From the NCBI GenBank assembly GCA_000161775.1, contig GG704596.1, forward strand, positions 1,883,593 to 1,947,592: a DNA stretch of 64,000 bases, written 5' to 3'. Below the pieces are notes generated by a model. It worked only from the letters and a program-made list of their open reading frames with translations. It had not been told where the DNA came from and made no database searches. The stretch comes from Ruegeria lacuscaerulensis ITI-1157. GTDB taxonomy: Bacteria > Pseudomonadota > Alphaproteobacteria > Rhodobacterales > Rhodobacteraceae. The first letter of the stretch is position 1, and the number at the start of each line of letters is the position of its first letter. The position numbers and the translations under genes are program-made. Positions 2,526-50,753 of this stretch are shown here, piece after piece.

Positions 2526-4199
<1,674 letters not shown>

Positions 4200-4268
4200 G
4201 ATCGGTCGGGTTCGCCCAGGCGGACCCACCTCCCCCAATGCGGGGGGACATCTGCCAAAGATTTCAGC

Positions 4269-4297
4269 GGGGTCGCCTTCGGGCGGCCCCGTTTCTT
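4269..4297 (+). terminator. Rho-independent terminator after groEL
   Basis: The stem GGGGTCGCC / GGCGGCCCC (one G-T pair) closes a TTCG tetraloop and is followed by GTTTCTTT. It lies about 70 bases past the groEL stop codon. Confidence 0.8.
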
Positions 4298-4403
4298 TCA
4301 TTGCCTTCCGTGTCGGCGCGGCTTGGGTATTTTCAAAAAAAAAGTGAAGTCAACCGCACCGGAACGGGGTGTTCCCCGGTATCGAAGCGGCTAAGGGTGG
4401 GGG

Positions 4404-5267
4404 ATGCGATTGTTTCTTCTCACCGCCCTGACCATGTGCGCCTTCGCTGCGAATTCGCTGCTGAACCGGGCGGCCGTGGATGGCGGGGCCAGCGACCCGG
4501 CCGGTTTTGCGGTTGTTCGGGTATTGACGGGTGCGCTGGTTCTGTCGGCGCTGGTCGTGTTGCGCGGCGGCAGGCTGGAGATGCGCAGCAGAAAACGACT
4601 GTTCGCTGCCGGGGCCTTGTCGGTCTACATGATTGGCTTTTCCACTGCCTACCTGACTCTGGATGCCGGGCTGGGTGCGTTGATCCTGTTTGCCGTGGTC
4701 CAGGTTTCGATGTTCGTCGCGGGCAGCTTTGCCGGTGCGTCACCAAGCGCCCGCCAATGGCTTGGGGCAGGGGTGGCTCTGGCCGGTTTGGTCTGGGTCC
4801 TCTGGCCGGCCGGTGGGGCGCAGGTGCACATGCGTGGTGCCGCTTTGATGGCCGCTGCGGGAATCGGTTGGGCGGCCTATTCGCTCGCCGGTCGTTCCGA
4901 GCCCGATGCCCTTGCCGGAACCGCGGCAAATTTCGTGGTCGCCTTGCCGATGACGGCAACGGCGCTGTGGGTGATGGGCTGCGGGTGGCATATGACACCG
5001 GCCGGCATCGGCCTTGCGGCCATTTCCGGCGCCGTAACCTCGGGGTTGGGGTATGCGCTTTGGTATCGGGTTCTGCCACGGCTTTCACCCGCAGTCGCGG
5101 CGGTGGTGCAGCTGAGCGTACCGGTCATCGCAATCGGGGCCGGCGCGGCGCTGTTGAGCGAACAGATCGACGCACGGCTGATCGTCGGGGCTGGTCTGGT
5201 GCTGGGGGGTATCGCGCTGGCGGTTCTGCGCCTGACGCGCGGGCGGGGCTTTTCTAGACAGGGATAA
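4404..5267 (+). CDS. DMT/EamA family membrane transporter
   Basis: The 287-residue protein is almost wholly hydrophobic, with about ten predicted membrane helices arranged as two EamA repeats (roughly residues 1-133 and 140-275). The second-repeat segments [17 protein letters not shown] and [15 protein letters not shown] are typical of drug/metabolite exporters. It would sit in the inner membrane and export a small metabolite or amino acid; the substrate cannot be read from sequence. The stop is 17 bases ahead of the hydrolase gene, which in turn overlaps phnM, so the three probably form one operon. Confidence 0.85.
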
Positions 5268-5284: not shown

Positions 5285-6058
5285 ATGCGTATTCTGATTT
5301 TCATCTGGCTCTGTCTTCTCCCGGCCGTCGCACAATCGAAATGCGTCGTGCTGTTGCACGGGCTTGCCCGGACCGAGGCGTCGTTTTCGGTCATGGAGGA
5401 ATTGTTCGAACTGCACGGCTACACCGTCGTGCGACCGGGTTACCCTTCGACCGACCTGCCCATTCCCGATCTGGCGAACCAGACCTTGCCGGCCGCTTTT
5501 TCTGCCTGCGGAGACGACACGGCGAACGTGGTGGCGCATTCGATGGGAGGCATCCTGCTGCGCTATTGGCTGCAGGATCATCGCCCGGAAAACCTGGGCC
5601 GCGTGGTCATGCTGGGGCCGCCGAACCAGGGCAGCCAGCTGGTCGATGAATTGGGGGATTGGGCGGTGTTCGGCCTGTTGAACGGTCCGGCCGGGCTGCA
5701 ACTTGGAACCGGCCCCGAGGGCATTCCCCGCCGTTTGCCACCTGTTGATTTCGAGTTGGGTGTGATTGCCGGGGAAAACTCGTTGAACCCCGTGTTCTCG
5801 GCGCTGATCGACGGGCCGGATGACGGCAAGGTCGCGGTCGAGGAAACCAAGGTCGAGGGCATGGCCGACCACATCGTCTTGCCGGTGACGCACACCTTCA
5901 TGATGAACAACCCGCAGGTCATGGCCCAGGCGCTGCATTTCATTGAATACGGATCTTTCGACCGCAGCATCACCTGGCTGGACGGGGTACTGGACATCAT
6001 CGATGAAATCTGTATCGGCGAGAACTGCGCCGAACCCGCCTCGGAACCCACACGATGA
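5285..6058 (+). CDS. Alpha/beta hydrolase, lipase-like, exported
   Basis: The 257-residue protein opens with a short signal peptide ([18 protein letters not shown]). It then shows the oxyanion HG at residues 25-26 ([10 protein letters not shown]) and a nucleophile elbow AHSMGG with Ser86. A downstream THTFMMNN supplies a candidate catalytic His. This order fits class 2 lipase/PGAP1-like acylhydrolases. The mature enzyme probably acts in the periplasm on an ester or lipid of unknown nature. Its stop codon overlaps the phnM start (ATGA), so translation is likely coupled. Confidence 0.8.
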
Positions 6059-48151: not shown

Positions 48152-48862
48152 ATGCGCCGTTTCTTGTTTTTGCTGGTACTGGCACTTGCCGGATGCGGCG
48201 TGCCAGCCGGGTACGACGTCTATGTGGCTGCCGAGGACTGGAACCCGTCCGCGCCGGCGATGCGCGATCGGGCCGAAACCTTCCGGCAGGTCAGCCGCGC
48301 TGTCGGGAATGCAGCCCGCGCGGAATGCGCAAGGCAGCCCGGTGGCCGGAACTGTGATTTCGTCATTCTCGTCGACCTGGACCCGTTTGAGAGCCCCAAT
48401 GCCTTTCAAACGCTCGACAAGTCCGGGCGGCCGCTCATCATTTTCACGCAGAAAATGATAAAGTCCGCCCGGAACGGGGACGAGATGGCCTTCGTCATGG
48501 GGCACGAGGCTGCCCATCACATCCTGGGCCATATCGCACGGCAGCTGGAATACCAAAAGGAAGCTGCGCGGATTTTCGGTGAAGAGGCCAGGGCACAGGG
48601 GGCCGGGCCCGAGGAGATCGATCTGGCGCGCGAGCTTGGGGCAGAAGTCGGCAGGCGCAGTTACACCAAGCAGTTCGAGTTGGAGGCCGACAGGATGGGC
48701 ACGGTCATAACCTACGCCGCAGGTTATGATCCGCTTGTGGGCATGGCCTATTTCGGACGCATTCCTGACCCGGGCGACCGGTTTTTTGCATCGCATCCAC
48801 CGAATGCCCGCCGTGTCGAGGCGGTGCTGGAGACGGTCACCGAGATGGGGTTGATCCAATGA
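48152..48862 (+). CDS. M48 family metalloprotease, lipoprotein
   Basis: The 236-residue protein begins with a lipoprotein signal (MRRFLFLLVLALAGC, Cys15 as acylation site). The zinc site HEAAHH at residues 118-123 is followed by the third ligand Glu in FELEADRMG, then a final FASHPPNARRVEAVLE. These are M48/BepA-like features. It is probably a periplasmic or outer-membrane-tethered protease in envelope quality control. It overlaps the IMPACT-like gene by four bases. Confidence 0.9.
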   Translation: MRRFLFLLVLALAGCGVPAGYDVYVAAEDWNPSAPAMRDRAETFRQVSRAVGNAARAECARQPGGRNCDFVILVDLDPFESPNAFQTLDKSGRPLIIFTQKMIKSARNGDEMAFVMGHEAAHHILGHIARQLEYQKEAARIFGEEARAQGAGPEEIDLARELGAEVGRRSYTKQFELEADRMGTVITYAAGYDPLVGMAYFGRIPDPGDRFFASHPPNARRVEAVLETVTEMGLIQ

Positions 48863-49227
48863 CCGAACTGACCAAGCTGGGCGTGGTTCTGACAGATCGC
48901 GGTTCAAAATATGCGGTGACCGGCGCGCAGGTCAGAAGCCGCGAGGACGTTGACGGGGTGTTGCGGATGCTCAAGTCCGACAAGAGCTATGCGAAAGCCA
49001 CACACAATACCTGGGCTGCGGTGTTGCCCAATGGCGCGCTCAAGGCGGATGACGGGGAAAGCGGGGCCGGTATGGTGATCCTGAAGATGCTGGAACGCGC
49101 GGGGCTGCGGAACCATGTGGTGATCGTGACGCGCTGGTACGGTGGCAAGAAATTGGGCGGCGACCGTTTCCGGAGGGTTCAGGACGCCACCCGCACCTAT
49201 CTGGAACATCTGGGCCTGCCATCTTGA
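48859..49227 (+). CDS. IMPACT/YigZ-like (UPF0029) domain protein, short form
   Basis: The 122-residue protein matches only the N-terminal UPF0029 domain of YigZ: THNTWAAVLPNG, DDGESGAGMVILKMLE and VIVTRWYGGKKLGGDRF. Normal YigZ is about 200 residues with a C-terminal DUF1949 domain that is missing here. Eukaryotic IMPACT regulates translation through GCN2; the bacterial role is unclear. It is coupled to the M48 gene by an ATGA overlap. An FNR-type box overlaps its stop codon. Confidence 0.82.
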   Translation: MTELTKLGVVLTDRGSKYAVTGAQVRSREDVDGVLRMLKSDKSYAKATHNTWAAVLPNGALKADDGESGAGMVILKMLERAGLRNHVVIVTRWYGGKKLGGDRFRRVQDATRTYLEHLGLPS

Positions 49228-49237
49228 CCTGCATCAA
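49224..49237 (+). promoter_or_regulatory. FNR/FnrL-type box ahead of the DUF6455 genes
   Basis: TTGAC-CTGC-ATCAA matches the FNR consensus TTGAT-N4-ATCAA at nine of ten bases. Its centre is about 65 bases before the first DUF6455 start. A TAGCCT at 49260-49265 lies where the -10 of a class II FNR promoter would be. This suggests oxygen-dependent activation. Confidence 0.6.
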
Positions 49238-49295
49238 GGGCTTGGCGCCGCGGATGCGTTAGCCTGACTTGGGTATGCCAGAGAAAGGAATGCCG

Positions 49296-49565
49296 ATGCC
49301 AAGCCGCGAGGTTCTGCGGCGTCACGCCGATTTGCTGGATCGGATGGCGACGAAACTGGGTGTCGATCTTCAATCCGTCGCCATAGCCGGAGACGTGTCC
49401 GTGGATGAAATCTCCGAGGCCGTGCTGCGCTGCTCCGGTTGCCCCGACCCAGAGCATTGCGCTTTCAGGTTGCGGCTGCAGGAGACCTCTGCAGAACCAC
49501 CGGAATACTGCCGAAACCGCGAGTTGCTGCAAGGTCTGATGCCATCGGCGGGACCAAGCCGATGA
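49296..49565 (+). CDS. DUF6455 family protein, copy 1
   Basis: The 89-residue protein is helical (VLRRHADLLDRMATKLGVDL) with four cysteines at 46, 49, 55 and 72 (C-x2-C-x5-C-x16-C) and a YCRNRELL ending typical of DUF6455. The start at 49296 has AAAGGA at a good distance; the ATG two codons earlier is too close. The pattern suits binding of a metal or Fe-S cluster, but that is inference. Its stop overlaps copy 2 by three bases (ATGA). Confidence 0.8.
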   Translation: MPSREVLRRHADLLDRMATKLGVDLQSVAIAGDVSVDEISEAVLRCSGCPDPEHCAFRLRLQETSAEPPEYCRNRELLQGLMPSAGPSR

Positions 49566-49831
49566 GGGCAATGGGCCAGATCATGCGCCACATGCGTCTT
49601 GTCCTGCGTATGGGGCGGGCTGCAGGGGTTGATCTGGTCGAGGCACACAAATCCGGTCGGTTGAGCCAAGCGGATTGGGCGGGCATGGTGCGGCGGTGCC
49701 AAAACTGTTCAGCGGCGCAACCGTGTCACGACTGGCTGGCGCGGCATGACACGTGCGGACCAACGTTCGAAACTTGTCCCAATCGGGCGATATTCAAGCA
49801 ACTCAGGAAACCAGAACGTCAGGAAACATGA
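49562..49831 (+). CDS. DUF6455 family protein, copy 2
   Basis: The 89-residue protein has cysteines at 46, 49, 55 and 72, exactly the same positions as copy 1, plus Cys65. Helix MRLVLRMGRAAGVDL and the tail TCPNRAIFKQL align with the first copy. It is translationally coupled to both neighbours by ATGA overlaps. It is clearly a tandem paralogue, though the sequences have diverged, so the duplication is old. Function is unknown. Confidence 0.78.
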   Translation: MRAMGQIMRHMRLVLRMGRAAGVDLVEAHKSGRLSQADWAGMVRRCQNCSAAQPCHDWLARHDTCGPTFETCPNRAIFKQLRKPERQET

Positions 49832-50088
49832 TGCAGCACATACGTTTGGGAGACATCGAGAAGCATTTCTGGCTGACGCGTTCGGTTGCACGCTGCATCG
49901 GAGTGTCGCTGAGCGAGGCCATGGCGACGGGGCAACTGACACCGCAGGGCTATGCGGAACTGGTCACGCGGTGCAGGGCTTCGGGATGCAGTGAGAAATG
50001 TGCGCAATGGCTGGCCGCTCGACAGCGCAGGGCTGATACGGCGCCCGAGTTCTGCGCCAACTCCGAATCGCTGAACAAATTGACTTGA
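49828..50088 (+). CDS. DUF6455 family protein, copy 3
   Basis: The 86-residue protein keeps the helical first half (FWLTRSVARCIGVSL) and the tail FCANSESLNKL, but its cysteines are at 49, 54, 58 and 76 (C-x4-C-x3-C) with an extra Cys23. The ligand spacing has therefore changed. It begins inside copy 2 (ATGA) and ends the apparent operon. It converges on the CDGSH gene, with four bases between the stops. Confidence 0.75.
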   Translation: MMQHIRLGDIEKHFWLTRSVARCIGVSLSEAMATGQLTPQGYAELVTRCRASGCSEKCAQWLAARQRRADTAPEFCANSESLNKLT

Positions 50089-50092
50089 CTGT

Positions 50093-50335
50093 TCAAAGCC
50101 GTGAATGCCTGCCATCGCAAAACGGGGGGTTTGCGGTCTGCTTGCAGCCGCAGAAGAACACTTTCCTGCTGGTCTCGGCCGTGTACTTGACGGGCTCCAG
50201 CCCCGTGTCCTTGTGCGATCCATCGCAGAAAGGTTGGCGCCCGGACCGTCCGCAGGCACACCAGAAATAGCTTTTTCCCTCGGTCACTTCGACAACATAG
50301 GGTTCATTCTGGGCGATCTTCGGCTTTTCGGACAT
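50093..50335 (-). CDS. CDGSH iron-sulfur domain protein with two motifs
   Basis: The 80-residue protein has two CDGSH-type sites: Cys26, Cys28, Cys37, His41 (CACGRSGRQPFCDGSH) and Cys62, Cys64, Cys73, His77 (CGCKQTANPPFCDGRH). Each would hold one [2Fe-2S] cluster with three Cys and one His, as in mitoNEET relatives. It probably moves electrons or clusters in the cytosol. The start at 50335 follows CCGGAGAG. It converges on the DUF6455 triplet. Confidence 0.93.
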   Translation of the reverse strand: MSEKPKIAQNEPYVVEVTEGKSYFWCACGRSGRQPFCDGSHKDTGLEPVKYTAETSRKVFFCGCKQTANPPFCDGRHSRL

Positions 50336-50564
50336 CTGATCTCTCCGGCATTTGTTTGATGGGTGATCGTCAATGTAATCCATCGCGGGCCATTGGGTAG
50401 AGGTCAAAGACGAGGGACGATCGAAGTGGCCGCAGGCGCCGAATTGCCATCGATCACGGGGATGTGACCCGAAATGTTGCCAGAATGGAAACTAGCCCCT
50501 ATCCTGCCTGTGGCCCCGAAAAAAAGTTGGGCAATATCACAAGATTATTAAAGGATTGATGGAC

Positions 50565-50753
50565 ATGAAACTGAAATTTGCTGCCGCTGGTGCCTTTGCC
50601 TTGATCCTGACCGCTTGCGGTCAGCAGGAAGAACCAACACCGGTCTACGTCCAGCCGGCTTATGACAAATACGGTACGCCCAGCTGCTCGGCCGGCTATG
50701 AACTGGCCACCACCGAAGCCGGTCAGACAGTTTGTAACCCGGTCATCCAGTAA
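50565..50753 (+). CDS. Small lipoprotein of unknown function
   Basis: The 62-residue protein has a lipoprotein signal with lipobox LTAC (Cys18), then QQEEPTPVYVQPAYDKYG and two further cysteines (PSCSAGYEL and TVCNPVIQ) that could form a disulfide. AAAGGA at 50550-50555 fits the ATG at 50565 better than the one at 50559. It would be anchored in the inner or outer membrane facing the periplasm. It has its own terminator. Confidence 0.75.
   Translation: MKLKFAAAGAFALILTACGQQEEPTPVYVQPAYDKYGTPSCSAGYELATTEAGQTVCNPVIQ

Follow-up and report, generated by a model that had tools for sequence, protein, structure and literature searches.

The window analysed here, a 64-kb stretch of the genome of Ruegeria lacuscaerulensis ITI-1157, contains what is, with a probability of about 0.7, an FnrL-activated operon for paralogous small cytosolic proteins with four cysteines, most likely metal-binding and probably of use at low oxygen. 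In the proposed mechanism, low oxygen would allow FnrL, which is encoded elsewhere in the genome, to bind a palindrome centred at about -41.5, from where it would act on RNA polymerase as a class II activator. A single mRNA would then give rise to three translationally coupled helical proteins of the DUF6455 family. The four conserved cysteines of each protein most likely bind a metal, perhaps as an iron–sulphur cluster. The three copies appear to represent old, separate DUF6455 lineages, copy 3 having a shifted second ligand. Their products probably serve the microaerobic/anaerobic switch, in which they could act as sensors with a labile cluster, as carriers or as adaptors, and the convergent gene for a CDGSH protein would be an independent neighbour.

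Organisation of the DUF6455 locus

Upstream of the operon, and not part of it, lies a gene for a UPF0029/IMPACT-type protein of 122 amino acids (48859..49227, plus strand; PF01205, 84.9 bits against a cut-off of 27). Its TGA stop codon (49225-49227) is overlapped by a 14-bp FNR-type palindrome, TTGACCTGCATCAA (49224..49237, no strand assigned), which fits the palindrome TTGAY-N4-RTCAA of the FNR/FnrL regulon; the window has no second exact match to TTGAYNNNNATCAA. The palindrome is followed on the plus strand by a predicted -10 hexamer, TAGCCT (49260..49265), which was read from the sequence and is conserved in relatives, and by a likely ribosome-binding site, AAAGGA (49284..49289), located 6 bases 5' of the ATG at 49296; a purine run resembling AAAGGA is also found in relatives.

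The three DUF6455 genes are encoded on the plus strand and joined by ATGA overlaps at both junctions, i.e., between copies 1 and 2 and between copies 2 and 3. Copy 1 (49296..49565, 89 amino acids; PF20056, 93.0 bits) has cysteines at positions 46, 49, 55 and 72, copy 2 (49562..49831, 89 amino acids; 79.2 bits) at 46, 49, 55, 65 and 72, and copy 3 (49828..50088, 86 amino acids; 77.3 bits) at 23, 49, 54, 58 and 76. All three score above the Pfam cut-off of 23.7, cover nearly the full profile and are thus members of PF20056; no other match to this profile occurs in the genome (3.52 Mb). On the opposite strand, a convergent gene for a dual-CDGSH protein of 80 amino acids (50093..50335, minus strand; PF09360, 71.4 bits in two stretches, against a cut-off of 29.5) ends 4 bp past copy 3 and is judged to be a neighbour outside the operon. 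Further along, the sequence TTGATGGACATGAA at 50556-50569 is one letter off the FNR-type pattern and is overlapped by a short lipoprotein-like gene (50562-50750).

The earlier note on this DNA had described an FNR box that overlaps the upstream stop codon and precedes three ATGA-coupled DUF6455 genes, with which both the coordinates and the Pfam scores agree. It had also reported two complete CDGSH sites in the convergent 80-residue protein, and both motifs are found together with the PF09360 match. The cysteine positions 46, 49, 55 and 72 that it gave for copies 1 and 2 are indeed common to both, but its description overlooked the additional C65 of copy 2.

Cysteines, paralogues and fold of the DUF6455 proteins

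The loci of relatives referred to below are the best 80 of 193, and several of them come from the same Ruegeria genomes as the genus set. At least four cysteines are present in all 161 DUF6455 proteins of these loci. The spacing is C-x2-C-x5-C plus a later cysteine in 147 proteins and C-x4-C-x3-C plus a later cysteine in 12, with two proteins showing other arrangements; the four conserved cysteines are a reading of the family made here rather than a Pfam statement on PF20056. Copy 1 has the C-x2-C-x5-C form in 80 of 80 rows. Two copies (L108:6547-6828 and L163:6301-6570) carry the additional spacings C-x9-C-x3-C and C-x2-C-x4-C, so that the cysteine spacing is variable in copies 2 and 3 but constant across the 80 rows of copy 1.

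A tree of 164 rows, calculated with FastTree on 88 columns and hence on a weak basis, separates copy 1 (plus one other row) from copies 2 and 3 with 100% local support and groups copy 2 (plus four others) at 97%; copy 3 does not form one group. On this tree, the triplication of DUF6455 seems to be older than the genera. The C-x4-C-x3-C spacing is confined to copy-3-type rows, found in Ruegeria, Phaeobacter, Pseudodonghicola, Aestuariivita and other relatives, and requires a minimum of five changes on the same tree. The proposal that the copies have diverged in ligand geometry applies to copy 3, whose spacing is changed, and to no other copy. Taken as a local divergence, it has to be given up, since the copy 3 shift recurs as a variant within an old paralogue that several genera share.

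AlphaFold2 predicts five-helix models with a mean pLDDT of 88.7 for copy 1 and 91.5 for copy 3. In the copy 1 model, C46 falls close to where helix 3 ends, C49 lies in a loop, helix 4 contains C55, and C72 immediately precedes helix 5, while the copy 3 model has a longer helix 3, with C54 in the loop. Neither model has a match in the PDB by Foldseek at E up to 0.001, and the copy 1 model has none in a viral library at the same threshold. Searches with PDB sequence profiles give a best E of 0.18 for the family profile and no match for copy 3, and none of the three copies has a significant match in NCBIfam. The highest 19-residue hydropathy means of the DUF6455 proteins are between 0.46 and 0.90 and hence do not indicate a membrane span. 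If the proteins are cytosolic, their cysteines should be reduced, which makes metal ligands likelier than disulphides.

Metal binding by the DUF6455 proteins is accordingly regarded as probable on the basis of their sequences, and an iron–sulphur cluster as the bound cofactor receives slightly less than even odds. The C-x2-C-x5-C spacing occurs in several [4Fe-4S] proteins, and WhiB and the loop of endonuclease III have similar cores. The four conserved cysteines would fit zinc as well, and single weak zinc-type Pfam matches occur among DUF6455 members; the proteins would then have no redox role and serve as small structural adaptors or as modules for protein binding, a tentative alternative to be taken seriously. 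FNR-type control and the spacing just mentioned speak against zinc and lean, if indirectly, towards iron–sulphur.

The FnrL-like regulator and FNR-type sites in the genome

In total, the genome contains 22 TTGAYNNNNRTCAA sites, compared to 3 for the reversed control pattern. Among them are sites that separate usp from ccoN, a CRP/FNR-type gene from a radical SAM gene, and coxII from PmbA-TldD, and further sites are located 5' of ccoG, coxI, phaC and PPK2. Several sites lie inside called genes, where they may be idle. The FnrL-like regulator itself is a protein of 247 amino acids with cNMP-binding and HTH_Crp_2 domains and with cysteines at positions 12, 15, 23 and 26. Its gene is part of the ccoN cluster, in which ccoN was identified by TIGR00780, and has its own box.

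The sequence data strongly support regulation of the DUF6455 operon, which FnrL or a regulator closely related to it should turn on at low oxygen. Another CRP/FNR regulator of the DNR or FixK type could mainly use the box, in which case the operon would answer to NO or another redox signal more than to oxygen. FNR, FixK and DNR have one target sequence in common, according to the available part of PMC2908626, so the sequence does not settle which type of regulator is acting, and six HTH_Crp_2 matches of at least 44 bits are present in the genome. This alternative is nevertheless considered unlikely, given the position of the boxed FnrL-like gene within the ccoN cluster and the fact that a 14-mer identical to the present box, TTGACctgcATCAA, appears among the FnrL ChIP-chip sites of R. 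sphaeroides, at RSP0166, in the accessible text of the same publication (PMC2908626).

The CDGSH neighbour

In Ruegeria, a CDGSH motif is present in 30 of 30 loci, both motifs being recovered by pattern in 25 of them and one in 5. A CDGSH gene is found in 14 of the 80 relatives' loci, a lower bound like all neighbour counts from these loci, because their genes were called by a GC-frame-based script and some were missed. In a sample of 198 genomes of the family, compiled by hand in this respect, CDGSH occurs within 3 kb of DUF6455 in at least 20 genomes. The co-occurrence at the genome level is mild (64/115 genomes with DUF6455 versus 27/83 without, p = 0.0015).

The motif in all Ruegeria loci, the nearness within 3 kb and the genome-level co-occurrence are what favours the view that the DUF6455 and dual-CDGSH proteins form one oxygen-regulated, cluster-handling set. 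The convergent orientation of the gene and its presence in so few of the 80 loci argue against it, as does the observation that a full box (TTGA-N6-TCAA with eight fixed letters, as in all counts unless a stricter pattern is given) is found upstream of none of 13 called CDGSH genes in the relatives' loci. In the window, the 465 bp 5' of the CDGSH gene contain no TTG-N8-CAA among the matches listed. Nine regions with CDGSH near DUF6455 were opened. In seven of them, CDGSH forms a single block together with rimO, M48 and IMPACT genes, whose order and strand differ between regions; this block accounts for the nearness in these cases, and the other two regions stop at contig ends; the DUF6455 genes have a box in eight of the nine, the exception being L261. 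The nearness of CDGSH thus looks more like synteny with a housekeeping block than like a common switch, and a joint DUF6455/CDGSH set, as suggested in the earlier note, is very doubtful. The window neighbour resembles CDGSH/NEET-type proteins (PF09360) in having two full CDGSH motifs within 80 amino acids and differs from the DUF6455 genes in lying outside the operon and lacking an FNR box.

Conservation of the FNR-type box and promoter geometry

The earlier note had proposed a search for the FNR box in related genomes, and its conservation there turns out to be far above chance. A full box is present 5' of copy 1 in 76 of the 80 relatives' loci and the other four are off by one letter; the inner positions are Y and R in all 76. 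Within Ruegeria, the full box occupies the same place in all 30 loci that were fetched from 37 genomes, the present one included. The rest of the 80 loci contains 11 full boxes in 927,650 bp, corresponding to 0.0017 expected per 140-bp stretch, or about 0.13 in 80. Among the 30 best loci of the family sample, 26 have a full box and L044, L060 and L061 have none, while in L038 the profile match lies elsewhere in the locus, so that the box is not properly assessed there.

Two controls concern the genes around the operon. The box is equally common with an IMPACT gene directly upstream (37/38) and without it (39/42) in the 80 loci, and the shared stop codon of the IMPACT gene is therefore not its explanation. 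Furthermore, nine neighbouring gene clusters have a full box in only 3 of 357 upstream stretches, namely 1/64 for M48, 2/55 for one further cluster and 0 for all others.

The distance between the box and the promoter is fixed as well. Both the genus loci and the 80 relatives' loci have a conserved -10 hexamer that spans +36 to +41, counted from the start of the box. Its signature in the 76 loci with a full box is an A at +37 (74%) and a T at +41 (79%), and 30 of the 76 have an exact TA-N3-T at +36. These positions would place the transcription start near 49272 and, relative to this predicted start, the box centre (49230.5) at about -41.5, i.e., at the class II position of FNR. At the second base after TCAA (window position 49239, offset +15 relative to the start of the box; L096-L175), 99% of the 76 promoters have G, compared to no more than about one half of the remaining FNR-type sites in the genome; in the DUF6455 promoters, this G is perhaps a contact of the -35 region.

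Although the TGA of the box also serves as a stop codon and a palindrome may come about fortuitously, the notion that this one is accidental or belongs to the end of the upstream gene, with no part in DUF6455 expression, is hardly credible for a box that is conserved with and without IMPACT, keeps a fixed distance to the -10 element and is nearly absent from neighbouring genes. Both the chance palindrome and the imposition of the box by the IMPACT stop codon are thereby ruled out as far as conservation and neighbour-gene controls can tell, and the palindrome upstream of the DUF6455 operon is not a matter of chance. The sequence side of the earlier claim of FNR-type control is borne out by a box whose place in the promoter stays the same within the genus, in the family and beyond.

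Distribution of DUF6455 and its other loci

DUF6455 is present in all 37 Ruegeria genomes examined, of which 30 have three or more matches and seven have one or two. In the family sample, which consists of nearly all one genome per genus, it is found in 115 of 198 genomes and missing from 83. The 80 relatives' loci contain 37 single, 8 double, 34 triple copies and 1 quadruple copy. A ccoN match is present in 114 of the 115 genomes with DUF6455 and in 66 of the 83 without (Fisher p = 1.6e-6, uncorrected for kinship and completeness); ccoN matches were accepted at E up to 0.001, giving 180 of 198 genomes, 169 of which are above the curated cut-off. As 66 of 83 genomes lacking DUF6455 have a ccoN match, DUF6455 is not needed for having this oxidase.

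DUF6455 genes at other places in Rhodobacterales chromosomes have a full box in 7 of 7 cases fetched, 71-114 bp before the match; these seven genes were hand-chosen, and in two the inner letter is other than Y. A second DUF6455 type, located elsewhere on the chromosome and likewise preceded by an FNR-type box, is seen in four loci (L213, L214, L216 and L218), with DUF6314, an adenylosuccinate-lyase-like gene or an OsmC/hydrolase fusion nearby. The few recurring neighbours of this second type in Rhodobacterales look like plain synteny.

Outside the family, DUF6455 is rare: 385 genomes were searched, and 15 of the 19 with a match lie outside it, while a second survey of 398 genomes gave 29 with a match, 2 of them outside the class. 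A full box, sought from 200 bp before the frame up to the match, is present in 15 of 27 profile rows from 25 loci outside the family. When three spurious-looking rows are dropped (an antisense frame in L246, plus L255 and L256, none with a box), 15 of 24 rows have a box, four of these 15 coming from one group (f174), compared to about 0.6 expected from the background, and the other 9 of the 24 genes have no full box. L210 contains two convergent DUF6455 genes outside the family (4837-5238, plus strand, and 5304-5921, minus strand), each with an upstream full box, the second scoring just below the Pfam cut-off. In L202, one open frame (3664-5229) comprises a glycosyltransferase and a DUF6455 domain and reflects either a fusion or a missed gene boundary. 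As clues to function, this frame and N-terminal extensions provide nothing clear, and the mixed neighbours of distant DUF6455 genes are no guide.

Comparison with known systems

The locus resembles the FNR/FnrL regulon of alphaproteobacteria, as described in the available portions of PMC2908626, PMC4263372, PMC4634722 and PMC5398030, in both the consensus box and its position near -41.5. The present genome likewise has boxes at the known targets ccoN, usp, coxI and coxII. Among the targets found in these portions, no DUF6455 gene is named. The core FNR list contains one set of hypothetical proteins, ID 2905 (PMC2908626, available part), which could be the DUF6455 family. Several FnrL targets in Rhodobacter, RSP2573, RSP6116 and RCC00435 among them, are given as unnamed hypothetical proteins in the parts seen, and a link to DUF6455 may therefore sit unrecognised in published tables. 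In the literature listings and text passages searched, no statement of a DUF6455–FNR link was found, and a search for PF20056 returned nothing related by title. Only one paper was found that mentions DUF6455 by name; it lists a single gene of Azospirillum that is raised 1.67 log2 by ethylene, with no function given in the accessible text (PMC11819568).

The three copies belong to a family, DUF6455 (PF20056), that has no assigned function, even though FNR-type regulons are well studied and the family is boxed in relatives' loci and scattered relatives alike. A likely expression condition offers a clear first experiment on this domain of unknown function. If the DUF6455 proteins hold labile clusters, they would provide a new downstream level at which marine bacteria sense oxygen or NO. 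A bolder version, which is rather improbable, would make DUF6455 an independent family of [4Fe-4S] proteins that respond to oxygen or NO and are, in kind, the proteobacterial counterpart of WhiB; the FNR regulon would produce up to three paralogues of it at once. The ligand shift of copy 3 would then tune cluster stability or partner choice, and the family would form a second cluster-based sensing layer after FNR.

A parallel in ligand order is E. coli Fnr, whose cluster is bound by C20, C23, C29 and C122 according to the available part of PMC5398030, and thus by the C-x2-C-x5-C core plus a later fourth cysteine that DUF6455 also shows; this likeness is a lead only. The cluster loop of endonuclease III/MutY is absent among the matches listed (25 of 32 families, 103 members, E up to 10). 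Membership in the WhiB family finds no support, as only one of 103 DUF6455 members matches PF02467, at E = 0.074, and no WhiB chain appears in a PDB sequence search up to E 10. WhiB-like [4Fe-4S] proteins are nonetheless small and helical and have a C-x2-C-x5-C core, as do the DUF6455 proteins, which differ from them in that their fourth cysteine lies C-terminal to this core.
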